Shown one piece after another: positions 9,712-48,184 of a stretch of 64,000 nucleotides of DNA. The position numbers and the translations under genes are program-made. Source of the stretch: a virus; the IMG/VR virus record IMGVR_UViG_3300008448_000014, positions 1 to 64,000 of that record. One strand, written 5' to 3'. Under the pieces are notes generated by a model. It was not told where the DNA came from and ran no database searches. It was given only the letters and a program-made list of their open reading frames with translations. Position 1 is the first letter of the stretch. The number at the start of each line of letters is the position of its first letter.

Positions 9712-9717
9712 CAAAAA

Positions 9718-9743
9718 GGCTGGTTGGGTGATTAAGAACCAGG
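9718..9743 (+). other. Short hairpin in intergenic gap
   Basis: CTGGTT (9720-9725) pairs with AACCAG (9737-9742) within a 56-base gap that is less A/T-rich than its surroundings. No T run follows. It may be an RNA-processing or translational element for the gene at 9768; a tRNA was considered and rejected. Confidence 0.35.
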
Positions 9744-9767
9744 CGTAGATAATATAAGCACTTCTCT

Positions 9768-9971
9768 ATGAGAATATATGAACCAAAGAACAGAATAGAT
9801 GTTATAACCCCCAAGGGAGAGGGAGTGATTTTTCTTGTTACAGACTATGGTCATGAGACAGACACCATCTATACAATTATAATAAACACTACAGGTGAGA
9901 TGTGGCAATACACTCACAAAGATATAATAGTTAAACCCAATATAACATTTAAACGCTATGGCAACAATTAA
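9768..9971 (+). CDS. Hypothetical protein, 67 aa
   Basis: A beta-rich sequence with strands such as GVIFLVTDYG and DTIYTIIINTTGEMWQY. It overlaps the next gene by 14 bases. No family recognised; an SH3-like small barrel is possible from the strand pattern. Confidence 0.6.
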   Translation: MRIYEPKNRIDVITPKGEGVIFLVTDYGHETDTIYTIIINTTGEMWQYTHKDIIVKPNITFKRYGNN

Positions 9972-10401
9972 AAAAGCACAGAATGGTTCTAATTTTGGAT
10001 TACCAAAAGGTGCAAAAGCAGTTCCTCAAAAAGATAGAAGACCTTCTTATATTCAAAAAGCAGATAAGAGTATTACTAATTTTTCTAAAAAAGTATCTGA
10101 TAAAGTTTCAGATGATTTAAAACCTGAAAATGTTAAAAAAGCTTTAAAAAATTTAAAAAATTTTGGTAAGGACTTAATAGGTATGAAAGCTGGTGGGTCT
10201 GTTAAAAAGAAAATGAGAAATGGTGGGTCTCTATCTGGACTTAAAGCATCAAACAAAAGAGCTGGTTCTGAAAAAGGAGCTTGGATCACTGTACAAAACA
10301 AAACATTAGCTGGTGCTACAAGTAAAGCTAAACTTACCAAAGACAAACAACTTGGTGCTACAAAAATGGCTAAAAGAGGAATGTCTATTAAAAAGAAATA
10401 A
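9958..10401 (+). CDS. Lys-rich basic protein, 147 aa
   Basis: Starts ATIKKAQNG, a beginning typical of a family of basic Bacteroidota phage proteins. Contains KAGGSVKKKMRNGG and ends GMSIKKK. It is rich in Lys, Gly and Ser with little hydrophobic core, so probably disordered. First of a run of related proteins up to 12032. Candidates are internal virion DNA-neutralising proteins or host nucleoid binders; neither is shown. Confidence 0.7.
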   Translation: MATIKKAQNGSNFGLPKGAKAVPQKDRRPSYIQKADKSITNFSKKVSDKVSDDLKPENVKKALKNLKNFGKDLIGMKAGGSVKKKMRNGGSLSGLKASNKRAGSEKGAWITVQNKTLAGATSKAKLTKDKQLGATKMAKRGMSIKKK

Positions 10402-10556
10402 TGGCTACTGATAAAAAATGGATTCAGAAAGCAGTAAAAGGAATGCGTAAAGATAAACCTTGTACTGGGCCTAAACTTGGTAGTAAAACTTGTCCTCCTG
10501 GAAGTAAAAGATATAATCTTGCCAAAACTTTTAGTAAAATGAATAAAAAGAAATAA
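10401..10556 (+). CDS. Basic small protein, 51 aa
   Basis: Coupled to the previous gene by TAATG. Sequence begins ATDKKWIQKAVKGMRKDKPC, has a second Cys in KTCPPGSKR and ends KMNKKK. The WIQKA-type start and LAKTFSKM ending recur in small crAss-like phage proteins (memory). Part of the basic cluster. Confidence 0.7.
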   Translation: MATDKKWIQKAVKGMRKDKPCTGPKLGSKTCPPGSKRYNLAKTFSKMNKKK

Positions 10557-10558
10557 TT

Positions 10559-11068
10559 ATGGCAAATATAACAAAAGTACCTAATGGTCCTCTTATTAAA
10601 AAGAAGGGTGAGTTTAAAGGAAGTACATTAAAAGCTGGTGGTGTTGTTAAGAAAGCACAAACTGGTGATAGTTTAACTCCTCAACAAAAAAGAGCTAAGT
10701 TAGATAGTATTACAGCAGTTAAAAGAGCTGAAATAACAAGGAAAAAAGATTCTATTCTTAATAGAAATGCTGCAGCTCAAGGTCTTACAAGAGAACAAGT
10801 AAGAGCTAAGCAAGAAGCTGATAAAAAGAAACCAGATGCCACTAGTTCTAGTTTAAGTGGACAAAATGCAGGTCCTGATGGATGTAAAGCTATTGGTAAA
10901 GCTGCTAGAGCTAGAAAGAAAAATGGTGGTATGATTAAACGTGCTGATGGTTCATTTTCTAAACCTGGTCTTTGGGATAATATCCGTAAGAATAAAGGAT
11001 CTGGAAAGAAGCCTACAAAGCAAATGTTAGTACAAGAGAAGAAGATTAAAGCTAAATCTAAGAAATAA
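10559..11068 (+). CDS. Lys-rich basic protein, 169 aa
   Basis: Alternating Lys/Ala/Gly sequence with GGVVKKAQTGDS near the N-terminus (related to KKAQNG of its neighbour), a long charged helix in the middle (residues about 45-95) and a basic C-terminus. Shares the TAATG junction with the next gene. Function unknown. Confidence 0.7.
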   Translation: MANITKVPNGPLIKKKGEFKGSTLKAGGVVKKAQTGDSLTPQQKRAKLDSITAVKRAEITRKKDSILNRNAAAQGLTREQVRAKQEADKKKPDATSSSLSGQNAGPDGCKAIGKAARARKKNGGMIKRADGSFSKPGLWDNIRKNKGSGKKPTKQMLVQEKKIKAKSKK

Positions 11069-11346
11069 TGGCAACTAAATCTGCAACTAAAAAGCCTGCA
11101 ATTAAAAAAGCTAGACCAGGTGCTTGGACTCGTAAAGAAGGACAAAGCCCTACAGGTGGATTGAATGCTAAAGGAAGAGCATCTTTAAGAGCTCAAGGAC
11201 AAAACATAAAACCTCCTCAACCTGAGGGTGGTCCTAGAAAAAAATCTTATTGTGCGAGATCTGCAGGACAAATGAAAATGTTTCCTAAAGCAGCTAAAGA
11301 TCCAAATAGTAGATTAAGATTAGCAAGGAAAAAATGGAAATGTTAA
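11068..11346 (+). CDS. Basic protein with two Cys, 92 aa
   Basis: ATKSATKKPAIKKARPG start; the middle part GPRKKSYCARSAGQMKMFPKAA through RKKWKC looks like a conserved basic phage motif (SYCARSxGQM) seen with small virion-region proteins (memory). Part of the basic cluster. Confidence 0.7.
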   Translation: MATKSATKKPAIKKARPGAWTRKEGQSPTGGLNAKGRASLRAQGQNIKPPQPEGGPRKKSYCARSAGQMKMFPKAAKDPNSRLRLARKKWKC

Positions 11347-11367
11347 ACCCTATAAAAATATAAAATC

Positions 11368-11850
11368 ATGTTACAACCTAAAAAGCCTGTAAAGAAATAT
11401 GTTCCTACAGCAAAAGAAAAAAAGAATCTTAAAGATGCTAAAGAGCAGAAAAATATGAGACCTCCATTTACTTCTGAGGAAAGAAAGAAAATGCCTAGAG
11501 TAGGTAGTATGGGAACTGCTAAAAATGGTAAAAATATTAAAAAAGCTAAAACAGGAACTTCATTAGGAATGAAATCTGTTAAAGCTGGTTATGATAAAAA
11601 TCCTGGTGTAACTCGTGCTGATATTATTACAGCTGCTACAAAGAAAGCTAAAACTGGAACTATTATTCCTAAAAAGAATAGTGTATCTAAAAATGTTGGT
11701 AATCTTAATAAAGCTAAATTTGGTGATATGTTAGGTAAAGCAGCAGGTAGTGGTATGTTTGGATTAGCTGGAATGGCTGCTAATAAACTATTTGGTGATA
11801 AAAAGAAAACAGGTGGTACTGTGAAAAAATGTATGCAAGGTTGCAAATAA
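11368..11850 (+). CDS. Lys-rich basic protein, 160 aa
   Basis: Contains several KKAKTGT repeats (near residues 56, 91, 98) and a Gly/Ala-rich hydrophobic segment (GMFGLAGMAANKLFG) before a KKTGGTVKKC tail. It could contact membrane or capsid through that segment. Related in repeats to the proteins at 9958 and 10559. Confidence 0.7.
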   Translation: MLQPKKPVKKYVPTAKEKKNLKDAKEQKNMRPPFTSEERKKMPRVGSMGTAKNGKNIKKAKTGTSLGMKSVKAGYDKNPGVTRADIITAATKKAKTGTIIPKKNSVSKNVGNLNKAKFGDMLGKAAGSGMFGLAGMAANKLFGDKKKTGGTVKKCMQGCK

Positions 11851-11852
11851 TT

Positions 11853-12032
11853 ATGGCTGCAAGTAAATCAATGACTTCTGGTAAAGCTAAGAAGAGTGGA
11901 GCACCAAGAATGGCTCCTAAAGTTGGTATTCCTAGAAAGGATAAACCTTTTTCTAAAGTGAAGAGTATGGATGATAAAGCTATAAGAAAAGCTCCTATGC
12001 AACTAATGAAACAAAAAAGACTAAGTAAATAA
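11853..12032 (+). CDS. Basic small protein, 59 aa
   Basis: The ATG at 11853 is preferred over an upstream ATG at 11829 inside the previous gene because it follows that gene's stop directly. AASKSMTSGKAKKSG start, Lys/Met-rich. Last plus-strand gene before the convergent terminator. Confidence 0.65.
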   Translation: MAASKSMTSGKAKKSGAPRMAPKVGIPRKDKPFSKVKSMDDKAIRKAPMQLMKQKRLSK

Positions 12033-12064
12033 ATTCTTCTCTTCTTTTCATATTTTTTTTGTTA

Positions 12065-12096
12065 AAAAAAGCTCTATAGTGATATAGAGCTTTTTT
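12065..12096. terminator. Bidirectional terminator between convergent operons
   Basis: AAAAAAGCTCTATA (12065-12078), a GTGA loop, and TATAGAGCTTTTTT (12083-12096): a perfect 14-bp stem with A and T runs on both sides. It sits 32 bases after the last plus gene and directly before the end of the minus operon, so it can stop both transcripts. Confidence 0.92.
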
Positions 12097-12099
12097 GTT

Positions 12100-12966
12100 T
12101 TAATAAAATAAATTTAAATAGTCTTTATAGTCTCCCCAATAACTATTAGTGGGTTTTATATCTGTTGTAGAATATATACTATAGTGAGAAGTAAAATGTC
12201 CACCATGATTAACATGTACTGCAGGATTAATACAACTCCATTTCTGTCTAATTATATTAGGAATTTGAGGTTCTATCATTCCACTATTTGTAACAAGTGC
12301 ATTTTCTAATATAGATTCACAATGTTTTATAGCTTCATCAAATCTCATTGTCATTTGATGAAATGGTTCATGTTTAATAGGGACATTTTGCCAACCACTT
12401 TTACATAGTCCCATATAGTTCATATTAGTTATAACAGTGTTATTAGGAATGTCTGGAAAATCAAAATATCCTTCAGGATATAATACATCATGCTCTAAAA
12501 AAGATACATAGTCATAATTACCAGTTTGTTTTGCAACATATAATAGTTGCATTATTTGTAATAACTGGTTTAAATGAGACGTAGTTTTAGTCCAAGCTAT
12601 ATATTCAGTAAATGGATTCTGAGATTCATGGTTCCACATACAAGTTAATATGTCTGCTTTACCTTCTGATGCTTTTTGAATACTCTTTAAAGATGCTCTT
12701 ATAGCAGGAAAGGTTTCTGGTCTTGTATTATTAGAATAAAATATTCCAAGCTTATTATTAGTAGAAGCAGGGTAGACAAATAGTTTTCCTTCTGGTGTTG
12801 TAAACTTTTTACCATCTATATCAATTACAAGATTTTTAACTTTACCTACAGCAGGATCTCCTATTATATTATTGTCAGAACGTAAAATCAATTGGCCATT
12901 TCTGACCAATGATTTTACTTTTTCTGTACAATCTATATTTTCATATGTTGCTTTTAGTATATTCAT
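12100..12966 (-). CDS. Putative glycosyltransferase with N-terminal DUF3395-like domain
   Basis: The ATG at 12966, one base after the GroES-like gene's stop, is chosen over 12990. The N-terminal 70 residues (ATYENIDCTEKVKSLVRNG ... GDPAVGKVKNL) look like the small beta domain found in DUF3395-type proteins. The rest has GKADILTCMWN and a FLEHDVLYPEG motif, where EHD would take the place of the GT-A DxD. Last gene of the minus operon. Virion or cell-surface sugar transfer is plausible; substrate unknown. Confidence 0.6.
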   Translation of the reverse strand: MNILKATYENIDCTEKVKSLVRNGQLILRSDNNIIGDPAVGKVKNLVIDIDGKKFTTPEGKLFVYPASTNNKLGIFYSNNTRPETFPAIRASLKSIQKASEGKADILTCMWNHESQNPFTEYIAWTKTTSHLNQLLQIMQLLYVAKQTGNYDYVSFLEHDVLYPEGYFDFPDIPNNTVITNMNYMGLCKSGWQNVPIKHEPFHQMTMRFDEAIKHCESILENALVTNSGMIEPQIPNIIRQKWSCINPAVHVNHGGHFTSHYSIYSTTDIKPTNSYWGDYKDYLNLFY

Positions 12967-12967
12967 A

Positions 12968-13261
12968 TTACCATATATGAGCAACATCAAATGTTGAAAT
13001 CATAATAACTTCTCTATCTGCTGATAAAGGAATTCTAAGAGCTTTACCTGCAGTAGAAGGATCAATCATAATTTCATCACCCTCTTTTATATCTTCTATA
13101 AGATTACCAACAGCATAAACTTTTAGTCTACCCCATTTTTTCATTTTTTCTGCTTCTAATGCAGCTTTAGATTCTTCATCTAAATGAATAGAACTCTTGG
13201 GTTCTTCAGGAATTTCTAAATAAATTCTATTCCCTCTTAGTTGTTTAAATTCTTTTGCCAT
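12968..13261 (-). CDS. GroES-like co-chaperonin
   Basis: 97 residues, the usual Cpn10 size. LRGNRIYLEIPEEP at the start, then VYAVGNLIEDIKEGDEIMID and a final strand pair ending STFDVAHIW follow the Cpn10 barrel pattern. A mobile-loop-like segment (DEESKAALEAEKMKKWG) replaces the classic loop. Phage co-chaperonins (T4 gp31 type) adapt host GroEL for capsid-protein folding. Downstream of the Acb2/Tad1-like gene in the same operon. Confidence 0.75.
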   Translation of the reverse strand: MAKEFKQLRGNRIYLEIPEEPKSSIHLDEESKAALEAEKMKKWGRLKVYAVGNLIEDIKEGDEIMIDPSTAGKALRIPLSADREVIMISTFDVAHIW

Positions 13262-20222: not shown

Positions 20223-20471
20223 CTATTTTAAAATTAATGTTGATACTAATAATCCTATAGCACTACCAAAAGCAGCACCTAATGCGTATACAATTCTATC
20301 TGTTAATGTTCCAAATGCAACTTTCTTTACATTCCAACTCCATATTAGAGAAATCATAAATCCACAGAAAAATACACCTACATAAAATATCTTACTTAAG
20401 AAGTATGTATTAACTGCAACAAAGAACACTTGTATAAATCCTGTTATAAATAGTTTTATTGAATCTCTCAT
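20223..20471 (-). CDS. Small membrane protein, 82 aa
   Basis: Three hydrophobic segments: LFITGFIQVFFVAVNTYFL, YVGVFFCGFMISLIWSW and YALGAAFGSAIGLLVSTLIL. Overlaps the end of the dNMP kinase gene by 4 bases. Probably acts in the inner membrane; role unknown. Confidence 0.65.
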   Translation of the reverse strand: MRDSIKLFITGFIQVFFVAVNTYFLSKIFYVGVFFCGFMISLIWSWNVKKVAFGTLTDRIVYALGAAFGSAIGLLVSTLILK

Positions 20472-21796
20472 ATTATTCCTTCTATAGTTAATACTTGTCT
20501 CATCTTCTCTATAAGATCTTCTATAGATCCATTATTGATAATTTCATAATCAAACTCAGCATCATCAAGAGCTGTTTCACTTGGATGTAAATCTGCAGCA
20601 ATAAGTTTTATCTCGTGATATAGAACTTGTGCTTCTGAGAAGTCATTGTTTATAAAACAAAAATCTTGATATACTTCAGTGACTTCATAGGATCCAGAAG
20701 AAACACCTTCAGGATCTGTCCAGTATACTTTATCACCAACTTTGTATCTTACTACTCTAATAGTAATACCTTTTCTTTCTTCAACAGCTTCTAATTCATT
20801 AGGAAATCTCATGTCCGTTATGCACCACGAAGGATAAATTAAATTATTTTCTTCTTCTTTTAAATACAAACCTTCTCTTTCCATAAAAGCATTTTCGTAT
20901 GCTTCAGAAGCTTCTTCAGCAGTATCAAAATATCCAAGAAATTTTTGTTTTCCCTTTATTTGTATTTGTGCTCTCCAATTATGACTATCTTTAGTAACGC
21001 CTTTATAACCAGAAGTATTATCTTTTCTTAAACTTTTATTAATTGACTGTACTGCATAGCTTACACATCTACAATTATCAGGAGAATACCCTTTGTTATT
21101 ATCAATTCTATCAATACTTAAACTTTCATTATAACCATTTTCAATTGCCCAATTAATAAAAGAAGTAATATTATTTAACCATTCTTCACACATGGTTATG
21201 CCTCTATTACCATAATCATTATATCTTGGATGTTTTGGATTATTACATCTTTGTTTTATATTATGATAAGTACGATAAATTTTAGTTCCTTTATAACCAT
21301 GATGTAGTCTATCATCAACACATGTGTTTGATTTAGATATATCACTTATTGGAACATAATCAGCAAACAAAGCATTAACCCATACATTTGTATGTAATCC
21401 ATCACGCATTGCTTCTGTACCAAGTTTTTGAAGGAGCTCACGTATTGTCATTTTAGTTATACTACCTCTAGGACTATTGTTCATATATTCTATATAATCC
21501 CACTCTTGTCCAAGAAATGTCTTTTTGAACTCTTGGTCTTCAAACTTCTCTACATCAATACCAGTTAGAAGAGAAGCTGTTGTTTTCAACTTTCCAGCAA
21601 ATTTCTTAACTTCCCAATCAGATACATAATGTTGATCAAAGTTTCTTAAATTAGAACCTCCTCCTCTTTTTAAAAATTCTGCATAAGTTCTATGTCTAGA
21701 ACTATTTGAATCTCCACATTCACTAGTCAGATACTGAATAATTTTGCCTACAGTGTCCTTTCCACTGCCAATCTTTCCATTGATACCTATTATCAT
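20468..21796 (-). CDS. dNMP kinase interrupted in frame by an HNH-AP2 endonuclease domain
   Basis: 442 residues. P-loop GKIGSGKD (7-14) and KFAGKLK / FLGQEWDY segments identify a T4 gp1-like deoxynucleoside monophosphate kinase. After NALFADYVP (to about 151) a foreign HNH-AP2 block runs to about residue 320, and the kinase resumes with WCITDMRFPNELEAVEER. A second small module (KVGDKVYWTDPEGVSSGSY, about 351-399) is inserted before the final DLHPSE ... DYEIINNGS part. The frame is intact throughout. The kinase would feed dNTP synthesis. Whether it folds with both inserts is unknown. Confidence 0.8.
   Translation of the reverse strand: MIIGINGKIGSGKDTVGKIIQYLTSECGDSNSSRHRTYAEFLKRGGGSNLRNFDQHYVSDWEVKKFAGKLKTTASLLTGIDVEKFEDQEFKKTFLGQEWDYIEYMNNSPRGSITKMTIRELLQKLGTEAMRDGLHTNVWVNALFADYVPISDISKSNTCVDDRLHHGYKGTKIYRTYHNIKQRCNNPKHPRYNDYGNRGITMCEEWLNNITSFINWAIENGYNESLSIDRIDNNKGYSPDNCRCVSYAVQSINKSLRKDNTSGYKGVTKDSHNWRAQIQIKGKQKFLGYFDTAEEASEAYENAFMEREGLYLKEEENNLIYPSWCITDMRFPNELEAVEERKGITIRVVRYKVGDKVYWTDPEGVSSGSYEVTEVYQDFCFINNDFSEAQVLYHEIKLIAADLHPSETALDDAEFDYEIINNGSIEDLIEKMRQVLTIEGII
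20837..21343 (-). mobile_element. In-frame HNH-AP2 homing endonuclease insert
   Basis: Residues about 152-320 of the kinase. GTKIYRTYHNIKQRCNNP and SIDRIDNNKGYSPDNCRC are the usual features of HNH homing endonucleases, followed by an AP2-type DNA-binding domain (SGYKGVTKDSHNWRAQIQI, then FDTAEEASEAYE). The insert has no intein splice residues (no terminal His-Asn, no nucleophile after it), no stop and no start of its own with a clear upstream signal. Boundaries are estimated from where kinase-like sequence stops and resumes. Confidence 0.75.
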
Positions 21797-21902: not shown

Positions 21903-22061
21903 TTAAGTAATTTTAATTCTACATCCCCATCTTGAACAAGCCATATAGACATCAAAATAATAATCTTGCCAGTAATATACTGGTTCATTTGATATTCCAT
22001 CCCAGAATCCTTTTTCTGATGTTTTCATCATAGTGAGTCTACTTATAATATTTTTTATCAT
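21903..22061 (-). CDS. Hypothetical small protein, 52 aa
   Basis: Starts at an ATG overlapping the stop of the 136-residue gene and ends two bases before the zinc-ribbon gene. Aromatic-rich (EPVYYWQDYYFDVYM). The consistent overlap pattern supports it as a gene. Confidence 0.6.
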   Translation of the reverse strand: MIKNIISRLTMMKTSEKGFWDGISNEPVYYWQDYYFDVYMACSRWGCRIKIT

Positions 22062-22468
22062 ATTCCTAATAATTTAATTATTTTTCTAAATGTGTTAATG
22101 TCTTTACATTCTCCATAGTATATTGAATCTTCTAATTCATTATTAATAATTCTAATTTTATTGTTATTAATAATGTATAAATCATAATCTCTCCCTACCC
22201 CTTTATAAAAAAGATTTTCTTCAGCTGGACGTTGTTTCCATCCTTCAGATTCTATTTGTTCTTTAGTGAGATAGGGAACTCTAAGTTGTTCTTTTCTTTC
22301 ATAAAGAAGAAGTATTCTATCTATTGTAAAAGGATCAGGAAATTTGCATTTCATCCACTCAGGTTCACTTTTACTTAAAGACTCTGAAAGAGGTGTAACT
22401 AATTGTTCATACTCATATCCAATACATATGTCTTCTATATCTGGAGTAAAATATTTATTGTTTTCCAT
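22058..22468 (-). CDS. Hypothetical protein, 136 aa
   Basis: Acidic N-terminus (FTPDIEDICIGYEYEQL), then CKFPDPFTIDRILLLYE and a beta part with LYIINNNKIRIIN. No recognised family. Follows the GIY-YIG gene at 22490 by 21 bases. Confidence 0.65.
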   Translation of the reverse strand: MENNKYFTPDIEDICIGYEYEQLVTPLSESLSKSEPEWMKCKFPDPFTIDRILLLYERKEQLRVPYLTKEQIESEGWKQRPAEENLFYKGVGRDYDLYIINNNKIRIINNELEDSIYYGECKDINTFRKIIKLLGI

Positions 22469-22489: not shown

Positions 22490-23317
22490 TTATATAAATT
22501 CAAATTTACAACACTTGCTATTTCTAATAAGTTGAGCATATAATGTCCCTACTTTTATATTATTTTTTATAGAACATTGTGTTATAGACTCAAATAATTC
22601 TTTTGTTTCTTTATTTATAATTTTTCTACATATTTTATCTTTTTGTTTTTGAAGTTGTTCTTTACTAGGTTTCCTACCTTTTAATTTTATACTTCTTTTT
22701 AATTTACTTTCTTCTGAATGTATTCTTCCTGTATTTATACTTATTAATCGTAATCTTTCAGTTTCAGAAATTTTTTTACCTTTATGTATAATAGACATTT
22801 TTTTACAAAATTCTTCAGACATTTTTCTACCTTTTAAAGCTTTTGATATTTTTAATTTAGCTTCTTCAGTATGTTTATAGTTTTTGTTTTTTAAACGTAT
22901 TTTTTCTTTTGTCTCTTCTGATAAACATTTTCCTTTTCTACTATTTGAAATTTTTTCTCTACCTTCTTTACTTATTTTTCTACCTATTCCTGCTTTAGAT
23001 ATTTTTTCTTTAGTTTCATTAGTATGTAACCATCCAAAAGAACCTTCACCAGATTCATTAACAAGATTTGCAAATTCATTACTGTTTACAATATTGTATA
23101 ATTCAGAAAAATATAATCCTTTTTCTCTAATATCTTCAATATTATTAGAAGTATATAATATTTTTGTTTTTATACTTTTTGTTGAAATTTTATGAAATTT
23201 TAAGTGTCTTACCCAATATTTTCCACTCCCTTTATATTTATAAGGATTTTGTATTGTTTTACCTAAATATTTTAAACCTAAAGGAGATTCTTTTAAATAT
23301 AAATAAATTGTTTTCAT
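22490..23317 (-). CDS. GIY-YIG-type homing endonuclease with NUMOD3 repeats
   Basis: 275 residues. N-terminal IYLYLKESPLGLKYLGKT is a variant GIY-YIG start (Y/LY ... YLG) with a YKGSG loop. From about residue 95 there are five or more NUMOD3-like units (TKEKISKAGIGRK, GREKISNSRKGK, SEETKEKIRLKN, AKLKISKALKGRK), then a NUMOD1-like tail. Free-standing, between an HNH gene and a hypothetical gene, with its own promoter-like sequence upstream. It presumably cuts a phage gene lacking the insert. Confidence 0.8.
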   Translation of the reverse strand: MKTIYLYLKESPLGLKYLGKTIQNPYKYKGSGKYWVRHLKFHKISTKSIKTKILYTSNNIEDIREKGLYFSELYNIVNSNEFANLVNESGEGSFGWLHTNETKEKISKAGIGRKISKEGREKISNSRKGKCLSEETKEKIRLKNKNYKHTEEAKLKISKALKGRKMSEEFCKKMSIIHKGKKISETERLRLISINTGRIHSEESKLKRSIKLKGRKPSKEQLQKQKDKICRKIINKETKELFESITQCSIKNNIKVGTLYAQLIRNSKCCKFEFI

Positions 23318-29593: not shown

Positions 29594-30454
29594 TTAATAA
29601 TCACTATCTTCTTCAGAAATTGCAGCATCAGATGAAACTAAATTATCATCTGGGTTATAATCTGTAATCTCTTTGAATGTATAATAGTCTTTACAACCAT
29701 ATTCACCAGTTACATTAAGAACAAATCTTTCATGTGGTTTTAAGTCTTTAGACTTTTTACTAGCTAGCCCTTCAATAACTTTAGGATTAGAATAATCAAC
29801 AAGTTTAAAGTTCTTTAAAGCATATGCTGGTACAAATGATTTGTTATATATACCTTGGTATTCTTTAACTTCACCATCTTTCTCTTTTGTGATGATTGTA
29901 GCTAAAGCTCCAACATTACCACAATAGTCACCATCAATTTGATCTTTTAAATCTCTTACATTACCTTTCATCAATTTCTTCCAATCAATTTGTAATGTTG
30001 TATCATCACTTCTGTAGTCTAATTCACATAACCATGTTCTAACAAAGTTATAGAAATCTTCTTCTCCTACATATGCAACTCTATAATCTCTAGCAGAAAA
30101 CCATTCTGGTAAATCATCTACATCAGCTGCCCATGAACAAGCACCAATATCATTAATATACTGATGTTTTGTTTGATCTTTATTAGTTCTTTCTTTGTTT
30201 TCTAAGAAGAAATTTACTTTAAATTTATCACCATTTTTAACATCTTCTAACCAGAAATCAACTCTAAGAACAGTGTTTCCATCTCTTTCACTAAGATATT
30301 CTGCAGCTTTACTGTCTTCTTTAAGTTCCATTCCTAGTATGGATTTAAACTGCTCAATAGTAGGATTGATAGCTATAACTGAACACTCTACCATGCCAAC
30401 TTTTAAAGTTTTACTTGAATCACTTAATTGTCTTTTTTCTCCTTTAATACTCAT
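29594..30454 (-). CDS. Candidate single-stranded DNA-binding protein
   Basis: 286 residues, ending in an acidic tail (DDNLVSSDAAISEEDSDY) like that of T4 gp32/SSB proteins that recruit partners. Basic N-terminus (SIKGEKRQLSDSSK). It sits between primase and a recombination-type ATPase and has its own terminator, suggesting high expression. No OB-fold signature can be read with certainty; assignment is by context and tail. Confidence 0.5.
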   Translation of the reverse strand: MSIKGEKRQLSDSSKTLKVGMVECSVIAINPTIEQFKSILGMELKEDSKAAEYLSERDGNTVLRVDFWLEDVKNGDKFKVNFFLENKERTNKDQTKHQYINDIGACSWAADVDDLPEWFSARDYRVAYVGEEDFYNFVRTWLCELDYRSDDTTLQIDWKKLMKGNVRDLKDQIDGDYCGNVGALATIITKEKDGEVKEYQGIYNKSFVPAYALKNFKLVDYSNPKVIEGLASKKSKDLKPHERFVLNVTGEYGCKDYYTFKEITDYNPDDNLVSSDAAISEEDSDY

Positions 30455-30460
30455 AATTTT

Positions 30461-31105
30461 TTAATTTAAATAATAAAAATTTGTTTTTAATTTATTGTTT
30501 TTAATTTTACCTTCAAGGTATCTTTTTATAATAGAGAAAGATACATTATAGTGTTTAGCTGCTTCAGAAATACTATCCCAAATAGTTTCTTTATTTAAAA
30601 AATTTATTTCTTTTATTTTTATTTTAAATGAGCTATTTTTACTAATATTTAATCTATGTTCTATTGTTATAACCTGCAAAGCTCTTTTTTCTCTTATTTT
30701 ATTTTTTGTTTCTTCAGAATGTTTAGATCCCTTTTTTCTTCCTCTATTTTTACACTTAGATAAAGCTATTCTACAATTTTCTGAAATTATTCCTGTTTTA
30801 CCTCCTTTCGTTTTATTTAATAAATTGTTTCCTTCTTTTTCATACTTTTCTATCCACTCTTTTTCTTTTTCTTCCCATATTTCAGTAAGAACTTCTTCTA
30901 AAATATTTAATTTAGGTCGTATACCTTTTTCTAAAAGGGATTTAATCCATTTTGCTTTATCTTCATTTTTTCCTTTTATGTTATTTTTAGCTTCATGAAT
31001 ATGTCCCCAAAATCTGTTAAAAGGGTCTACAGTTTTTCCTACATATCTAATTTCTTCTGATTCTGGATCAGACAAAGAATAAATATAAACAGTTTTCATT
31101 TTCAT
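30461..31105 (-). CDS. GIY-YIG homing endonuclease
   Basis: 214 residues (212 if ATG 31099 is used). VYIYSLSDPESEEIRYVGKT is the GIY-YIG core with the RFWGHIHEA helix; a NUMOD-like KHSEETKNKIREKRA and a C-terminal HTH-like segment (SISEAAKHYNVSFSIIKRYL) follow. Inserted immediately upstream of the SSB candidate. Sister of the gene at 31854 by the shared IxSLxDP/IRYxG pattern. Confidence 0.85.
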   Translation of the reverse strand: MKMKTVYIYSLSDPESEEIRYVGKTVDPFNRFWGHIHEAKNNIKGKNEDKAKWIKSLLEKGIRPKLNILEEVLTEIWEEKEKEWIEKYEKEGNNLLNKTKGGKTGIISENCRIALSKCKNRGRKKGSKHSEETKNKIREKRALQVITIEHRLNISKNSSFKIKIKEINFLNKETIWDSISEAAKHYNVSFSIIKRYLEGKIKNNKLKTNFYYLN

Positions 31106-31185: not shown

Positions 31186-31857
31186 TTAGTTATAATATTC
31201 ATTAATTTTTTCTATAACAACTTGTAAGTTATTAGGTATTTTTACATCTGTAAACATTCCATCAGGACTTTTAGCTGGAAACTTTTTGTATCTATTAGTT
31301 ACAAAGTTATAGTCTACCATCCCATCCTTCTTTTCTTCTACATTTGTATATAATACAACTGTAAAAAGTCCTTCTAGATTAATTTGATTATCAATCAATT
31401 TACCTGCAGTTTTAATTTTGTATCCTATAATCTCACCACCATCTTCAATAGTTTCTGGGTGTGTAAAATAGAATACAATTAAATCATCTCTTAATGTTCT
31501 AGCTGTTCTAACTAAATCCACCATATCTTTAGCCATAAGACTAAATTTAGTGAAACCAGTTTCTGTAGCTTTAGCAACCATATTAAAACCCATTATATAG
31601 TTTGAATCTTCTATAATGATGTTTTTAATGTGTGGTGCTTTTTCAGAGATTGTTTTTAACAACTTGCTGATTTCAATAGCATCATCTACTTCTTTGTAAT
31701 TTTTGCTTTCTACGTTGTACAGTTTCTCACTTCCTTTAAATGGAAGTTCTTTTTTTGCTACGTTAATAATGTAAGTTTCTTTTGGGTCTAGATGTTTAAT
31801 ACTTGTTGATTTTCCAGTTCCTGTCTGTCCAACTATGCCTATCAGCTTCGAGCTCAT
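31186..31857 (-). CDS. P-loop ATPase (RecA-fold, Sak4-like)
   Basis: 223 residues. Walker A GQTGTGKST (10-18), Walker B-like IKNIIIEDSNY, and a sensor-like LIVFYFTHPET, as in single-domain phage recombination ATPases. Possibly anneals or loads recombinases. The first 13 codons are a replacement: an older copy with the same amino acids stands at 32822-32860, upstream of the GIY-YIG gene. The start overlaps the GIY-YIG stop (ATGA). Confidence 0.8.
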   Translation of the reverse strand: MSSKLIGIVGQTGTGKSTSIKHLDPKETYIINVAKKELPFKGSEKLYNVESKNYKEVDDAIEISKLLKTISEKAPHIKNIIIEDSNYIMGFNMVAKATETGFTKFSLMAKDMVDLVRTARTLRDDLIVFYFTHPETIEDGGEIIGYKIKTAGKLIDNQINLEGLFTVVLYTNVEEKKDGMVDYNFVTNRYKKFPAKSPDGMFTDVKIPNNLQVVIEKINEYYN

Positions 31858-32759
31858 ATGTTATATTTTTTATAGTTTTTTACTGATTTTATTCTTTCTT
31901 GTAATAAATCATATACTGCATAAACTAAACATCCAATATGTTTGGAAGCTTCTTTTACAGAATTAAATTTATATTCTACACCTTCTTTATATATAATAAT
32001 TTCTTTTTTATCTAAATTAGGGTTTAATGAGTTAATGGTCCACCCATTAATTGGTTTTTTACTTTTGTCTAATTTTTTATAAATAAAATCAGAGATATTT
32101 AAAAATTCCATAATTTCTGAAAATGTACTAAAAATTCTAATTTCTTTTTTTTCATAATTATATAAATATAAATAATCTTCTAAATGTAATTTACAAGTTT
32201 TTGAAATAAATATATTATCTATAGATCTTTTAGATTTTATTCTACTAATTATAGCTTTAATAGTTGTATTAAATAATACAGCAGTAGAAGTAATACTTTC
32301 TTCCTCTTTCAATAAATTTCCAAACTTATCAAACAAAAATAATTTTGTTGTTTTTTTCTTTATCTCATTTTTTTCATATTTTTCTTTTAATGTTTTACTT
32401 ATTAATTTTTTAGTATCTTCTGTAGTTATTCTACTTTCAGGACCAATACCTCTATCTTGAGCATTTAATAAATTAAATTTATCTTTATACTTTCCTATTA
32501 ATGATGTTTCAAAAATATATGATTCATTCCATCCTTTAATTTCAATCAATTTTTTAATTTTAGGTTCAATTCCTTTTTTTAATAAAGAATTTATCCAATT
32601 TACTTTGTGGGGAGGATTTCTGTTAGGAAAATATTTATTATAATATTTTGATTTACTTATATGTTCAATTAACCTTATTTCTAAAGGTTTTCTAGTTCGT
32701 CCAATGTATCTAATCTTACAATCTGTAGGATCATACAAACAATATATATTTACTTTCAT
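31854..32759 (-). CDS. GIY-YIG homing endonuclease inserted in the ATPase gene
   Basis: 301 residues from ATG 32759; an in-frame TTG six bases upstream is less likely. NIYCLYDPTDCKIRYIGRTRKP is the GIY-YIG core, with EHISKSKYY and IFETSLIGKY supplying the following helix and Glu. C-terminal NUMOD1-like segments (FDKFGNLLKEEESITSTA; KEGVEYKFNSVKEASKHIG). It lies between a relic of the ATPase 5' end and the intact ATPase gene, whose start it overlaps. Confidence 0.88.
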   Translation of the reverse strand: MKVNIYCLYDPTDCKIRYIGRTRKPLEIRLIEHISKSKYYNKYFPNRNPPHKVNWINSLLKKGIEPKIKKLIEIKGWNESYIFETSLIGKYKDKFNLLNAQDRGIGPESRITTEDTKKLISKTLKEKYEKNEIKKKTTKLFLFDKFGNLLKEEESITSTAVLFNTTIKAIISRIKSKRSIDNIFISKTCKLHLEDYLYLYNYEKKEIRIFSTFSEIMEFLNISDFIYKKLDKSKKPINGWTINSLNPNLDKKEIIIYKEGVEYKFNSVKEASKHIGCLVYAVYDLLQERIKSVKNYKKYNI

Positions 32760-32762
32760 AAG

Positions 32763-32789
32763 CAAATATAATTATAATTTTACAGCAAA
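32763..32789 (-). promoter_or_regulatory. Possible leaderless promoter of the GIY-YIG gene
   Basis: TATATTTG (32770-32763) is an exact -7 element ending 3 bases before the ATG at 32759, which would make the transcript start at or next to the start codon. The nearest TTTG (32789-32786) is 15 bases away, short of the 17-23 norm. Confidence 0.4.
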
Positions 32790-32821
32790 CTGGTATATAA
32801 ATGTTAAATTGTTGTTAAATC

Positions 32822-32860
32822 ACCTGTTTGTCCTACAATTCCAATTAGTTTAGAGCTCAT
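32822..32860 (-). pseudogene. Relic of the ATPase 5' end (13 codons)
   Basis: From ATG 32860 the reading frame gives MSSKLIGIVGQTG, identical over all 13 residues to the start of the ATPase at 31857, then leaves the gene and stops at 32804. At DNA level nine of the 13 codons differ, every time at the third base. The relic begins 2 bases after the stop of the 62-residue gene, the natural place for the next operon gene. It is cut inside the Walker A codons. Confidence 0.9.
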
Positions 32861-33485: not shown

Positions 33486-34568
33486 TTATATATATTTAAT
33501 TTTGTTTTTATCTATTAATTGAAGTGATTTCTCAAGCCATTTATTTTGAAAAACTTCTGTACTCACAAATATATGTATATGTGAATGATCTGTATCATCT
33601 AGTAAACTTCTTCCTATCATTTGCTCTAAATTTTCTCCATTACCATTAATGGCAGTTATTAATATATTTTGCAATTCTGGAAAAGTTACACCAGCAGAAG
33701 CTTTCTTTAATAAACACAATTGATTTATATCTCCTTGTTGAAATTGTTTTAAAATAGAATCATCTTTACTTTTACTATTGAACATAGGAAGATTATATTT
33801 AAGTCCTGTTTTTTCATCAGAACTAAATAATATAAACCTCTTATCTTTGTTATTGATAATCCATTTGTTTACACATTCAATTAAAGAGTCACATGAATTA
33901 ATAAATCTCATTCTTTCTAAAGACTTAAACATCTTTAGTTGACCACTGCTTTTTAATATAAAAGCACTGAGTCTGTTACATTCTTTTTTCTCTGTTGATT
34001 TCCATTTCTTTACTCTACCATACTCTACTATTTTAGTGTTATTTAAATTATATCTATGTATATAAATAGTAAAATCACTAACAATACCATCTTTAATAGC
34101 TTTGTTAGTAGAATAATCTACTATCAATTTCATTTTAGTAAAAAACTTTATGTCAGCTAAAGTTTCTTTATTATACGTACCAGAAGCAAACATTACATGT
34201 TTATTGTTTTTTGCTATATCTCCTGCAATAGGCATTTGATTTTCTTCTCCAAGAAGATGAGCTTCATCAAATACATAATAATCAGCAATTACTTTTTTGT
34301 TTTTTTCTAAAGACATAAAAGTGGAAAATATAATAATTTGTTTAAAGTTTAATCTATTTATTTCATTTTCCCAAGAAATACGCACGTCTATATTAGGATA
34401 AGCTATAAACACTGTTATTTCTTTATTATTACTATGATTTTTTATTGATTCTAAAATCATTTTTGTTTTTCCTGATCTTACACTAGATAATATAATACCT
34501 TTACAATTATTTTCTATAATAGTATTTTGTATTTTTTCTTGAATTAAATCTTTTTTTGTATTAATCAT
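33486..34568 (-). CDS. SF2 helicase (DEAH)
   Basis: 360 residues from ATG 34568, which overlaps the GIY-YIG stop; a longer start at 34592 would lie deeper in that gene. Walker A-like SVRSGKTK, VFDEAHLLG (motif II), ASGTYN (motif III-like) and QMIGRSL (motif VI). UvsW-like recombination helicases have this size. An 8-codon fragment at 35389-35415 may be its original start. Confidence 0.85.
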   Translation of the reverse strand: MINTKKDLIQEKIQNTIIENNCKGIILSSVRSGKTKMILESIKNHSNNKEITVFIAYPNIDVRISWENEINRLNFKQIIIFSTFMSLEKNKKVIADYYVFDEAHLLGEENQMPIAGDIAKNNKHVMFASGTYNKETLADIKFFTKMKLIVDYSTNKAIKDGIVSDFTIYIHRYNLNNTKIVEYGRVKKWKSTEKKECNRLSAFILKSSGQLKMFKSLERMRFINSCDSLIECVNKWIINNKDKRFILFSSDEKTGLKYNLPMFNSKSKDDSILKQFQQGDINQLCLLKKASAGVTFPELQNILITAINGNGENLEQMIGRSLLDDTDHSHIHIFVSTEVFQNKWLEKSLQLIDKNKIKYI

Positions 34569-35313
34569 ATTTATATTTCCATTTAAATCCACAAGATTGT
34601 TTTTGCCTACCTTTTAACGTTGCAGGTATATCTCCTTTAAAAAATTTTTTAGCTTCTGTTACAGTTTTCCATTCTTTAATAAAATTATCATTTAAATCAT
34701 ATTGTATTATAGGTTTTGAAACTCTTTCAGAAACTTTTTTTCTATTCTCAATTGACATACCTTTACCTATATTACCTAGTTTAATTTTTTCTTTAGTAAT
34801 TTCAGATAAAATTCTACCTTTTTTAGCTTTGCTCATTTTTTCACGAGCCTCTTTTGACATTTTTTTACCTTTGTTACCTTGAGAAATTTTTTTCTTAGTA
34901 TCTTCAGTATGTTTTTTATTTAAAAAATGTCCTACATGTCCTAATAATGTTTTAGATATTTTATTTTTAGTTTCTTGTAAAATTATTCTATTACTCATTT
35001 TTTTCTTTGTTTCCTCGCTTACTATTCTAGGTAAAATATCTGTTTCTTGTAATCTACAATTTAACCCTTTAGTGGAAACAACATTAAATAAATCTTGATA
35101 ATATCTTTCTTTAAGATTTAATTGATCATGTTTACATTCTTCAATTATTTCAAAAATATGATTTTCTACGCCATATTTTAAAAAGCTTTTATACAAAATA
35201 GGTTGATTTTTACAAGAAAGATTTTTATAATTTTTAAATCTTTTTTCAATATTAATACTTTGCCCAATGTATATTTTACCACTTGGACTTGTGATTTTAT
35301 AAATTCCTATCAT
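34561..35313 (-). CDS. GIY-YIG homing endonuclease with NUMOD3 repeats
   Basis: 250 residues from ATG 35313 (IGIYKITSPSGKIYIGQS). Classic GIY-YIG with RFKNYKN and the later Glu helix. NUMOD3-type units (SEETKKKMSNRI, TEDTKKKISQGNKGKK, AREKMSKAKKGR) and a C-terminal NUMOD1 (IIQYDLNDNFIKEWKTVTEA). Sits at the 5' end of the SF2 helicase gene, overlapping its start by 8 bases. Confidence 0.9.
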   Translation of the reverse strand: MIGIYKITSPSGKIYIGQSINIEKRFKNYKNLSCKNQPILYKSFLKYGVENHIFEIIEECKHDQLNLKERYYQDLFNVVSTKGLNCRLQETDILPRIVSEETKKKMSNRIILQETKNKISKTLLGHVGHFLNKKHTEDTKKKISQGNKGKKMSKEAREKMSKAKKGRILSEITKEKIKLGNIGKGMSIENRKKVSERVSKPIIQYDLNDNFIKEWKTVTEAKKFFKGDIPATLKGRQKQSCGFKWKYKYD

Positions 35314-35388: not shown

Positions 35389-35415
35389 CTACACTTGTAT
35401 TTCTGTTTTTGTCAT
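35389..35415 (-). pseudogene. Possible relic of the helicase 5' end
   Basis: An ATG at 35415 overlaps the stop of the upstream gene (ATGA), the usual junction here, but opens only eight codons (MTKTEIQV). The intact helicase starts MINTKKDLIQ. Position fits a severed gene start; sequence similarity is too short to prove it. Confidence 0.35.
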
Positions 35416-44275: not shown

Positions 44276-44461
44276 TTATAATTTCTTTAATCTATTATAA
44301 CATCTTAATTCACAATGAAATTCATGTTCAACTTCACATTCAACTTCTTTATGGTCTACATGTTGAAGTATAAATAATAATTTTTCATAATCAAAATCTT
44401 CTTTTTTATATTTTTTAAGAAGTTTATGCTTTTTAATTATTTTTTTAATAAATTTTATCAT
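44276..44461 (-). CDS. Hypothetical protein, 61 aa
   Basis: Basic N-terminus (IKFIKKIIKKHKLLKKYKK) and His/Cys-containing C-terminal part (VECEVEHEFHCELRC). It overlaps the HNH gene by 4 bases. Function unknown. Confidence 0.55.
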   Translation of the reverse strand: MIKFIKKIIKKHKLLKKYKKEDFDYEKLLFILQHVDHKEVECEVEHEFHCELRCYNRLKKL

Positions 44462-45135
44462 AATTTTTTAAATGTTTTATTAATCCATTCTGCAAACAAC
44501 AATAACTCTTCAACTGTAGCAGAATTTTTAATTGTATTAGCTTTCATTGAAATAATTTGTATATTACCTTTTATATATCCTTTAGTGTTATCAATTCTGT
44601 CTACAGAAGGCGAAAATTTATAATTATCTTTAGTTCCTTGTATTATAGGCTGTAACAGAATAGGACATATTTTTGGTATAACAATATCTTCTAGAGTAAT
44701 ATTAAATTCTATTCCTTTTTTTAAAGCTCTATCTTTACAACCTTTTAACAAAACTGCAGAAATATTTCTTAATCTACTTTCTCTTTTTTGTTTATTAATT
44801 TTTTCTTTAAAAATAGGATCATTATGTATTTTTTCTTTTCTTACAGCTCCAGATTTTTTAGCATATTCAGAAACTTTGTGTTTTTCTGAACAACATGTTT
44901 TACACCAAGTGTGTAATCCACCTTGTAATCCTGCATTTTTTGAAAACTCTTTTGCAGGTTTTGTTTTTTTACAACAAAAACAAGTTTTTTCAGTTAATGT
45001 TATTTCATATCTTTTAGTTTGTTTGATTAATGATGCACACTTTCTACAAGTACTTATAGTACCATCTAATGTTAATTTTGAATTTACAAATTCAATTAAA
45101 GGTTTTTCAATATTGCAATGTTTACAAATCTTCAT
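44458..45135 (-). CDS. HNH endonuclease with zinc fingers, probably homing
   Basis: 225 residues from ATG 45135 (KICKHCNIEKP); an upstream start at 45159 is unlikely. Three zinc pairs (CKHC, CRKC, CFCC/CKTC) precede an HNH-like SPSVDRIDNTKGYIKGNIQIISM. The DRIDNTKGY ... N pattern is typical of homing HNH enzymes. Located immediately downstream of the DNA polymerase and separated from it by a hairpin. Confidence 0.8.
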   Translation of the reverse strand: MKICKHCNIEKPLIEFVNSKLTLDGTISTCRKCASLIKQTKRYEITLTEKTCFCCKKTKPAKEFSKNAGLQGGLHTWCKTCCSEKHKVSEYAKKSGAVRKEKIHNDPIFKEKINKQKRESRLRNISAVLLKGCKDRALKKGIEFNITLEDIVIPKICPILLQPIIQGTKDNYKFSPSVDRIDNTKGYIKGNIQIISMKANTIKNSATVEELLLFAEWINKTFKKL

Positions 45136-45144
45136 AATTACTTT

Positions 45145-45183
45145 ATTTAATGAGCTCAAATTTACTTAAAGAACTCATTAAAT
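45145..45183 (-). promoter_or_regulatory. Hairpin with -7-like element upstream of the HNH gene
   Basis: ATTTAATGAG (45145-45154) and CTCATTAAAT (45174-45183) form a 10-bp stem. TAAATTTG (minus strand 45164-45157), 8/8 to the -7 consensus, sits inside the loop. No TTG at normal spacing. Could end the polymerase transcript or start that of the HNH gene. Confidence 0.5.
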
Positions 45184-45211: not shown

Positions 45212-47242
45212 TCACTTTGCATCATACCAAGAATTTCCATAATGTGCGTCTGCCTTGATTTTTAATGTTTGTAAATAATGGTTTCCACCTTCAATCATAG
45301 CTTCTTCAACTTTAGTTCTAGCTAATTCTGCTAAATCTACAGGACATTCTATTACTAATTCATCATGTACAGAATTACATATTTTAATTATATTAATATA
45401 ATTATTATCAACTATCCAATCAAAAAGTATTAAAGCACTTCTCTTAATCATCATGGCACTTCTGGCTTGAACAGGGTTGTTAAGGCATAAACGTTGGTAT
45501 TCAGATTTAAGTTTAAAAAATTGACTCACTTCTGTTTTCTTTGACTTATAATATGTCACAGCTTTAGGAAATATATATGTATATTCATTTCCTTTTTCTT
45601 TCTCATCAAACTTCTTTTTATAATCTAATTTACCTTGTTTATATAACTGCCATTGTTCTTTAGTTATAGCCTCAACTTTACCTTTGTATTCATTAAACTT
45701 ATCAAACTTTGGTAGAGCTAGTTTCCAACCATCTGCAGATTCTATATATCCTTGCTTAACAGCTTTATTGAATTCTTCTGCTCCCCATGTATACAATCCT
45801 TCATGAAGTTCTTTAAAAGCATCTTCAATTCTATATGCTTGTACTAATGGTATTCCTTCATTTTGATGAATAGTATATGCAGAACCACCATATTGAAATG
45901 CAAACCTTGGACTCTTTGCTGCTTGTCTTTTAGATTTATGTTCTTTAATGATTGTTTCATCATCAAGTTCTTCTAATTCTGGATATAAAACTCTAGCAAA
46001 AGCACAATGCAAATCATCTCCATTAACTACAGAAGATGTCATTGCAGCATCTCCAGATAAATCTGCAGCTACAACAGTTTCTTGACCACTATAATCACAA
46101 ACAATAATTACATTACCTTTATTAGCTTTAAAACACTTTCTTGTAATACTATCAGAAGGAAAATTTAAAAAGTTTATATTTCCTTTTCTAGTAGATAGTC
46201 TAGCTGTATCAACCATAGGATTAAAGTTAGTGTATATACGTTCATTCTCTATTTGCTTGTATATACTTTCTCCAAAGGTTGTAACTCTATGATTAGCTTC
46301 TTGAAAACTAAGCCACATATCAACAAAATCATGTTTAGATTTCTTTATAATGTTTTCTCCAATACTATCTTTACCATCTTTATCCTTTGTAGGGATACCA
46401 AAAGCATTAAAGACTTTAAGCATTTGTGATGGTGAATTAATAGATACATGTATTCTTTTCTTTGTGTCAAACATATCTATTTGTCCATCTGCAAATTGTG
46501 GAAGATTATCATATATATACTCTTCAATTATAGTTTTCCATTTGAATGTATTTTCTATGTCTTCAACCATTTTATCTTTCCATGATTTAGAGCTAATAGG
46601 AAGCCCACATTGCTCAATATATGCTAAAGCTCTAATATATCTACAATGAAGATTATATGTCTCTGTAAAGCCTCTTTTATTGATTTTAAGCATTAATGCA
46701 TCATGTAACTCAATAAGTCTATCAACATCATTAAATGAATACTCAATTGTACTCTGTTGGCTTAATTTAACTATATGAATATTCTTTTGGTCTGTTTTGT
46801 CATATATAACATCAAGTTCTCTTTCCATCACTTTACCAAAATCATGTCTATAAGGCATAAAGTCTTTATCAACTTGTCCATTATATATAATCTTACTAGC
46901 AAGCATTGTATCTCTAACATCTTTAGGATAGAATCCATACTTATAACAAAACCCTACATCAAATAATGCATTATGAAATATTAATGTCTTGCTCTCTATA
47001 TAAGGAACCAAATCACTAAACTTATAACTATTTTCTCCACTAGTATATAAGTCTATAATATAATTGTTTTTTCCTGTTCCAATTTGTACACAAAATATAT
47101 CACAATGTCTTGGTTGAAGTCCACTAGTTTCTGTGTCTATTCCTATAATATCAGGTAAAATTAAATCAGTTAAATCACAGTAATTATACTTACCAATTTT
47201 TTCAAAATATTTTTTATTTTTAGTTATAATAAAATTTGCCAT
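45212..47242 (-). CDS. polA: DNA polymerase, family A with 3'-5' exonuclease
   Basis: 676 residues. Exonuclease motifs DTETSG (Asp36, Glu38), FHNALFD (about 89-95), YSFND (168-172). Polymerase motif A VCDYSGQE (Asp383), motif B RQAAKSPRFAFQYG (439-452), motif C VHDE (625-628). Replicative enzyme. The first 40 codons are a replacement: a diverged older copy remains at 48062-48184, upstream of a GIY-YIG gene whose stop overlaps this start (TAATG). Confidence 0.95.
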   Translation of the reverse strand: MANFIITKNKKYFEKIGKYNYCDLTDLILPDIIGIDTETSGLQPRHCDIFCVQIGTGKNNYIIDLYTSGENSYKFSDLVPYIESKTLIFHNALFDVGFCYKYGFYPKDVRDTMLASKIIYNGQVDKDFMPYRHDFGKVMERELDVIYDKTDQKNIHIVKLSQQSTIEYSFNDVDRLIELHDALMLKINKRGFTETYNLHCRYIRALAYIEQCGLPISSKSWKDKMVEDIENTFKWKTIIEEYIYDNLPQFADGQIDMFDTKKRIHVSINSPSQMLKVFNAFGIPTKDKDGKDSIGENIIKKSKHDFVDMWLSFQEANHRVTTFGESIYKQIENERIYTNFNPMVDTARLSTRKGNINFLNFPSDSITRKCFKANKGNVIIVCDYSGQETVVAADLSGDAAMTSSVVNGDDLHCAFARVLYPELEELDDETIIKEHKSKRQAAKSPRFAFQYGGSAYTIHQNEGIPLVQAYRIEDAFKELHEGLYTWGAEEFNKAVKQGYIESADGWKLALPKFDKFNEYKGKVEAITKEQWQLYKQGKLDYKKKFDEKEKGNEYTYIFPKAVTYYKSKKTEVSQFFKLKSEYQRLCLNNPVQARSAMMIKRSALILFDWIVDNNYINIIKICNSVHDELVIECPVDLAELARTKVEEAMIEGGNHYLQTLKIKADAHYGNSWYDAK

Positions 47243-48003
47243 TATTTGTTTCTTTTTACTTTTTTAAAGAATAATCCTTTATAAGATTTGTTATTTTTAA
47301 TTGCTCTAAATATATTTTGATAAGATACTATTTTATTTTTTAAATACTTTTTATTAAATTTTTTAGCATTAATATTGTAAAACTCAATATAATCAGGAAT
47401 TGGTAAATCATTTTCTTTTGTTCTAGAAAATCTATCTATTTCCAAAGTATTATCAAATCTTCTAAAAAAGTTCATATTAATATCATACACTTCTATGTCA
47501 TCAAACATATTTTTTCTAGCATCAGAAATGTTATTACATACTAAACCTTTATTCCAAGAAGGTTTACCTTTTTTAATATTAGATAAATGTTGCCTGTAAT
47601 TTTCATTATTTTTATATCTTTCCTTTAATGTATCACTTATTTTTTTCTTTACATCACTATTACAAGGAGGTTGAGTAGTAACATCACTTATATTGTATCC
47701 ATTTTTAATACTATTAAAAAAGTTTATATAAAAAGATTCTTTTTCTCTTATAAAAGGTATATTATTATTTTCTAATATTTCTATTACAGAAAATTCAAAA
47801 TTTTCTATACCATGTTTTAAAACAGAATTATTTAAATAACTATTATGATGGTTACCTGTCTTAAGTTTTCTTACATGTTCAGTATATCTTCTTTTAAAAG
47901 TCATTTTTGTTGACCCAATGTAAACTTTATTATTTAATAAGTTTTTTATCATATAAACTCCTGAAAGTTTAAATGTTTCTAAATTTGGTATTGCTATTTT
48001 CAT
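47242..48003 (-). CDS. GIY-YIG homing endonuclease inserted in the polymerase gene
   Basis: 253 residues. After a 14-residue lead, GVYMIKNLLNNKVYIGST is the GIY-YIG core with KRRYTEH and a downstream Glu helix (IREKESFYINFFN). C-terminal DVKKKISDTLKERYKN is NUMOD3-like, followed by a NUMOD1/HTH-like tail. It separates the relic polymerase start from the repaired polymerase gene. Confidence 0.9.
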   Translation of the reverse strand: MKIAIPNLETFKLSGVYMIKNLLNNKVYIGSTKMTFKRRYTEHVRKLKTGNHHNSYLNNSVLKHGIENFEFSVIEILENNNIPFIREKESFYINFFNSIKNGYNISDVTTQPPCNSDVKKKISDTLKERYKNNENYRQHLSNIKKGKPSWNKGLVCNNISDARKNMFDDIEVYDINMNFFRRFDNTLEIDRFSRTKENDLPIPDYIEFYNINAKKFNKKYLKNKIVSYQNIFRAIKNNKSYKGLFFKKVKRNK

Positions 48004-48061: not shown

Positions 48062-48184
48062 TTAACCTGTTGTTTCACTATCACAAGCAATTACATCTGG
48101 AAGAATCATATCTTCTAAACTACAATAATTGTAATCACCAATGCTTTCAAACTGTTCTTTATTCTTGCATACTATATAGTTCAT
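48062..48184 (-). pseudogene. Relic of the DNA polymerase 5' end (40 codons)
   Basis: From ATG 48184 the frame reads MNYIVCKNKEQFESIGDYNY, continues CSLEDMILPDVIACDSETTG, and meets TAA. It aligns with the start of the intact polymerase (KNK..FE.IG.YNYC.L.D.ILPD.I..D.ET.G), about 22 identities in 39. It breaks off just after the DxETxG exonuclease motif. It overlaps the end of the 147-residue gene by 26 bases, the natural operon arrangement. Confidence 0.93.

Follow-up and report, generated by a model that had tools for sequence, protein, structure and literature searches.

The locus analysed here raises the question of why a phage should carry the first codons of one of its own replication genes twice, once as a truncated copy and once at the head of the intact gene, with an endonuclease gene between the two. 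The window, a 64,000-nucleotide stretch taken from a viral record of 113,909 bases, comes from a crAss-like phage; its Sak4-like ATPase finds matches in crAss-like phages among others, and the order of its replication genes is that of environmental relatives L001–L080. Read along the minus strand, a relic of the ATPase gene (32860–32822) is followed by a GIY-YIG gene (32759–31854) and then by the intact ATPase gene (31857–31186), which encodes a ssDNA-annealing ATPase of 223 residues (PHROG 2872, E=5e-53; AAA_24). The GIY-YIG stop codon directly overlaps the ATPase start codon at 31857 (ATGA).

The relic is 39 nt long (ATG AGC TCT AAA CTA ATT GGA ATT GTA GGA CAA ACA GGT) and comprises the first 13 codons of the ATPase gene, truncated within Walker A. 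The active gene begins ATG AGC TCG AAG CTG ATA GGC ATA GTT GGA CAG ACA GGA ACT GGA AAA TCA, and its first 13 codons (31819–31857) encode the same peptide as the relic, MSSKLIGIVGQTG, with 9 of the 13 codons different and every difference at the third base. The match is not a chance one, because all residues agree, the start codon is shared, both copies lie on the same strand and the GIY-YIG ORF sits exactly between them. Beyond the relic, where the sequence continues GAT TTA ACA ACA ATT TAA, homology to the ATPase is gone. Within Walker A the break separates G13 from T14 (GQTG^TGKS), and the same boundary between codons 13 and 14 is visible in the synonymous-difference profile of the ATPase gene. 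The identical residues, the third-base differences and the break inside the Walker A codons had all been reported in a first-pass annotation of the sequence, and they are borne out here.

Relatives in which the gene is uninvaded, such as L002–L005, carry the ATPase with its own leader of 39–63 nt, and in L002 and L003 it begins ATG AGT AGT AAA CTA ATT GGA ATT GTA GGA CAA ACA GGA and similar. The relic shows synonymous differences from L002 at 3 of 12 codons and from the active copy at 9 of 12, while the active ATPase differs synonymously from L002 at 9 of 12 codons over codons 2–13 and at 2 of 16 over codons 14–30 (Fisher p=0.0013). These counts make the relic and codons 14–30 one native sequence and active codons 1–13 the intruder. 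TCG, CTG and GGC, all used in the active start, make up 1%, 2% and 3% of the synonymous codons for their respective amino acids in this phage, and under the phage's own codon usage the active 13 codons have P=2e-5, against P=0.41 for the relic. The first 13 codons of the active ATPase are foreign and the relic is native, and the earlier claims that the active start uses unusual codons and that the 5' end was replaced with the protein kept hold on both counts. In DNA scans, the only match to the relic core was in the L002 contig and the only match to the recoded core was in L001; no ATPase relatives were found in bacterial genome contigs.

L001, a 9,965-base contig, is the closest relative (97% amino acid identity) and has no endonuclease at its ATPase locus. 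Its ATPase start includes AAG CTT ATA GGC ATA GTT; the run AAG-CTn-ATA-GGC-ATA-GTT is thus common to L001 and the active start of the window, with 5 of the 9 replaced codons shared, so that the replaced start has an outside relative. L001 speaks against an origin of the recoded start in the window phage alone. L001 is itself out of line with uninvaded relatives, differing synonymously from L003 at 11 of 12 codons over codons 2–13 and at 2 of 16 over codons 14–30 (p=4e-5), with the break point as in the window. An unrelated 43-codon ORF resembling the C-terminal end of TacA1 antitoxins (L001:4438-4566) occupies the place of the native ATPase leader and start, and its stop overlaps the ATPase start. 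The arrangement fits an older replacement at the same point with the endonuclease since lost, or kinship of L001 with the donor lineage. Nucleotides about 156–390 of the window ATPase gene are also 100% identical to L001, flanked by stretches of 87–95% identity, a sign of recent exchange within the gene.

The first-pass annotation took the active start to be in effect a recoded rescue that would make the gene resistant to the endonuclease. Adaptive recoding of this kind, in which the start diverged in situ, codon by codon, under selection to escape the endonuclease, would suit nine changes that are all synonymous and the use of rare codons, but is very improbable given the five codons shared with L001, the near absence of change from L002 in codons 14–30, and the replacements at the polymerase and helicase genes described below, which differ at the protein level. 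For two saturated natural alleles, 9 differing codons of 13 has P of about 0.08–0.10 and an identical run no longer than 8 nt has P of 0.24–0.39; the difference lies within that range, and its amount alone is therefore no proof of selected recoding. Since the divergence does not exceed that of natural alleles and L001 reveals outside relatives, "foreign allele" is preferred here to "recoded", and the simplest origin of the ATPase start is a divergent allele carried by a homing element. The rescue architecture is real and is repeated elsewhere in the genome and in further phages; the adaptive part of the proposal gives way to the divergent allele. The annotation had also looked to related phages, where L002 does have the relic-type start, and had named a relative with a recoded start and no endonuclease as the case that would count against it. 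L001 literally is such a relative, although not a clean refutation, since its own codons 2–13 are out of line.

The protein encoded between the two starts (31854–32759, minus strand; 301 residues, with an alternative TTG start at 32765) is, to judge from its residues, a GIY-YIG homing endonuclease. Alignment with GIY-YIG relatives identifies conserved Y6, Y18–G20, R29, H33, E84 and N99, with Y6, Y18, G20, R29, E84 and N99 invariant, giving a domain with the Y, YIG, R, E and N residues of the family. A NUMOD1 motif falls just below the Pfam cut-off, and a Pfam GIY-YIG match is obtained for relatives of the protein, not for the protein itself. In the AlphaFold model, residues 1–100 have pLDDT of about 90, and the best PDB matches are restriction endonucleases, among them PD-T4-3 (probability 1.00 but a weak E=0.017); because the PDB E-values are weak, it is the residues that carry the family assignment. 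Searches with peptide patterns did not find this endonuclease in other viral contigs, it was not found in cultured phages, and otherwise only distant relatives turned up. L059–L069 have a different endonuclease upstream of the ATPase, and no relic was seen there. A Bacteroidetes-type −7 promoter-like motif, TATATTTG (32763–32770, minus strand), lies 3 nt before the endonuclease ATG. TANNTTTG occurs within 22 nt upstream of the start in 5 of the 6 endonuclease genes of the window, compared with 4% of random positions (within 40 nt), which suggests that these genes have their own putative promoters; the Bacteroidetes two-box promoter pattern is not enriched in the window, where nothing but the −7 motif before endonuclease starts is conspicuous.

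Mobile introns typically place an endonuclease between two parts of a gene, and the relic could on that account be exon 1 and the gene beyond codon 13 exon 2 of a group I or II intron. This is exceedingly unlikely: an Rfam search gives no intron match and no group I catalytic RNA core around the endonuclease gene, and the segment after the endonuclease encodes the same 13 residues over again, in frame from its own ATG. The endonuclease is a separate ORF that shares no reading frame with the ATPase, and is thus free-standing, outside any intron or intein.

The same layout is found at two further genes of the window, all on the minus strand. A relic of the native DNA polymerase 5' end (48065–48184) spans 40 codons and is cut in the Exo I motif DSETTG; 31 of its 40 residues match uninvaded L089/L090 and 25 of 40 match the active start. 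It is followed by a GIY-YIG endonuclease gene (47242–48003; Pfam GIY-YIG, E=1e-9) that overlaps the polymerase start by 1 nt, and by the polymerase gene (45212–47242), in which the first ~75 codons are foreign: amino acid identity to L089 is 56–68% over codons 1–75 and about 85% over the next 50, as compared with 88–96% between L089 and L090 over codons 1–75. At the helicase, the relic (35394–35415) consists of the first 22 nt of the native gene and is identical to L001, the adjoining GIY-YIG endonuclease gene (34561–35313; GIY-YIG and NUMOD3 in Pfam) overlaps the helicase start by 8 nt, and the helicase gene (33486–34568) has a foreign first ~290 nt and aligns near-identically to L001 from the DEAH motif onward. 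That the polymerase and helicase replacements differ in protein as well points to foreign alleles. A further GIY-YIG endonuclease gene (30461–31105, minus strand) lies upstream of gene 29594–30454, of which the first ~90 nt have diverged from L001; no relic was found for this gene. Other observations on the window concern further endonuclease genes and the far end of the polymerase. An HNH/AP2-type endonuclease is seemingly inserted in frame within a deoxynucleotide monophosphate kinase gene (20468–21796, minus strand), which recalls in-frame homing inserts, ShiLan among them (PMC11855218), and a GIY-YIG/NUMOD3 endonuclease gene (22490–23317, minus strand) lies upstream of 22058–22468. Related HNH-like ORFs occur just downstream of the DNA polymerase in the window (44458–45159, minus strand) and in L106 (13160–13891), and divergence is also seen in the final ~75 codons of the window polymerase.

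The layout recurs in other phages. Replaced 5' ends are seen at the L017 helicase, in L109 and in L218, a 53% GC phage with different genes, and wherever a replaced 5' end comes with a relic, the gene start and the endonuclease stop overlap by 1–8 nt. Mirrored cases at the 3' end are seen at a DnaB-like gene of L020 and L045 and at the polymerase of L106, where the relic of the polymerase 3' end forms an in-frame continuation of an HNH-like ORF. The L106 polymerase gene is also split near codon 410 by a LAGLIDADG-like ORF (9710–13085), which may be read either as an intron or as a gene in pieces. L020 and L045 are about 85% identical over the gene body, and 97–100% identical over a block comprising the last ~135 nt of the gene, the endonuclease, a 64-residue ORF and the relic, with similarity lost beyond it; the relic is 82–91% identical to 14 listed relatives, as compared with 67–78% for the active end. 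Transfer of a block between two phages is shown at a 3' end, and this block is the strongest sign of a mobile unit. Because no relative carries the ATPase-locus endonuclease, transfer of the ATPase unit is not itself seen directly.

In a survey of 154 endonuclease ORFs, which passes over very short relics such as that of the helicase, matches were found at 10, two of them repeating others at overlapping loci, with about 7 terminal relics, so that most endonucleases are without the pattern. A control scan of non-endonuclease genes returned mainly paralogues, tandem endonucleases and tail repeats. Short identical runs between relic and active end (6–9 nt in six cases) were considered as selection against recombination, an argument that was dropped because natural allele pairs and simulations give such runs often enough.

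These comparisons bear on two other accounts. That the locus is an assembly chimera of two strains has only a slight probability: the record is a single metagenomic contig, but the layout is present at several loci and on independent contigs that come from different samples and of which two have the block in common. An unlikely but more serious candidate is an ordinary free-standing endonuclease beside a divergent allele, in which the element and its flank were acquired by co-conversion from a diverged phage, the relic is debris of an imprecise left junction and the foreign end does not belong to what moves. Flanks are routinely co-converted in T4-type homing (PMC2988022), and this account would sit well with the unequal lengths of the foreign tracts (39, ~225 and ~290 nt) and with L001, which has a similar start without an endonuclease. 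Against it, relic and replacement are paired at three genes of this genome and again in other phages, whether at the 5' or the 3' end, and in the L020/L045 block relic and replacement end travel together.

We therefore favor, as the probable explanation, a homing element composed of the GIY-YIG endonuclease gene together with a replacement for the piece of host gene that it cuts off. The mechanism is inferred from the layout of the locus and from the general course of homing (PMC2988022). During mixed infection, the endonuclease would cleave the native ATPase gene at the conserved codons of Walker A, and the element-bearing phage would serve as template for repair of the break. The recipient would gain both the endonuclease gene and the divergent 5' end, which would restore the frame and no longer match the target, presumably conferring resistance. 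The native 5' end would stay upstream as a relic ending at the cut and could act as the left homology arm in later rounds, the shared gene body being the other arm, and the ATPase would then be translated by coupling from the endonuclease stop codon. Set against this homing element are the recoded-type start of L001 without an endonuclease, the frequency of ~7 in 154, a degree of difference within natural allele divergence, and L017 and L067, which have in common the endonuclease at the helicase, although the replacement end did not accompany it.

Several known systems resemble the phage element in part. WHO elements of Torulaspora and Lachancea yeasts are mobile units of an endonuclease and a resistance-conferring gene end (Coughlan et al. 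2020, PMC7282813), with allele-specific cutting and resistance by allelic difference proven experimentally (PMC7282813). There too the endonuclease gene adjoins a conserved host gene, the gene end is a divergent allele and a fragment of the native end lies on the far side (PMC7282813). At the ATPase, the divergent allele beside the endonuclease replaces the 5' rather than the 3' end of the gene, and the relic at 32822–32860 is the displaced native-end fragment. WHO elements use an HO-like LAGLIDADG nuclease with a zinc finger and act at the 3' end of yeast nuclear FBA1 (PMC7282813), whereas the phage enzyme is a GIY-YIG protein with NUMOD1, and the phage elements occupy mostly 5' ends of replication genes, whose starts overlap the endonuclease stop. 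Fungal mitochondrial mobile ORFs, described for Glomus atp6, atp9, cox2 and nad3 and Allomyces atp6 (PMC3630166), likewise bring a replacement gene end with an endonuclease ORF, keep a relic of the native end and diverge in nucleotides with a nearly identical protein, and the Glomus atp9 case uses a GIY-YIG enzyme (PMC3630166). They differ in being mitochondrial, at 3' ends and mostly LAGLIDADG (PMC3630166); the 3' duplication with an endonuclease between is the form seen in L020, L045 and L106, and the ATPase has the 5' form. T4 Seg and Mob endonucleases share the phage GIY-YIG gene outside introns, the target in a neighbouring gene and flank co-conversion, but their cut sites are hundreds to thousands of bases away from the gene that encodes them (PMC2988022); the passages of this review of T4 free-standing endonucleases reached by a term search make no mention of gene-end relics. 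Synthetic home-and-rescue gene drives pair a cutter in the target gene with a rescue copy, a likeness by analogy only, as they are engineered, CRISPR-based and built in insects (PMC7968924). No description of the layout in phages was found in the open-access literature searched, which misses most subscription journals, and the 5'-end form with stop–start overlap differs from the described WHO (PMC7282813) and Glomus mobile-ORF (PMC3630166) forms.

We give roughly even odds to the broader reading that there is a general phage class of homing elements bearing their own replacement gene ends, 5' and 3', in which the 5' form couples translation, and that they act as natural home-and-rescue drives directed at conserved active-site codons in replication genes. 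With host-gene translation coupled to the endonuclease gene, the phage could not simply delete the element. Such elements would account for free-standing endonuclease genes inside replication genes without introns or inteins, and the signature of relic, endonuclease and foreign gene end would map homing events and point to probable cleavage sites, which in this genome are Walker A and the Exo I motif. Phage phylogenies will be misled by gene ends, 5' or 3', that lie close to such elements. The locus also offers a small phage system for allele-specific cleavage and rescue, so far shown in the yeast WHO elements.
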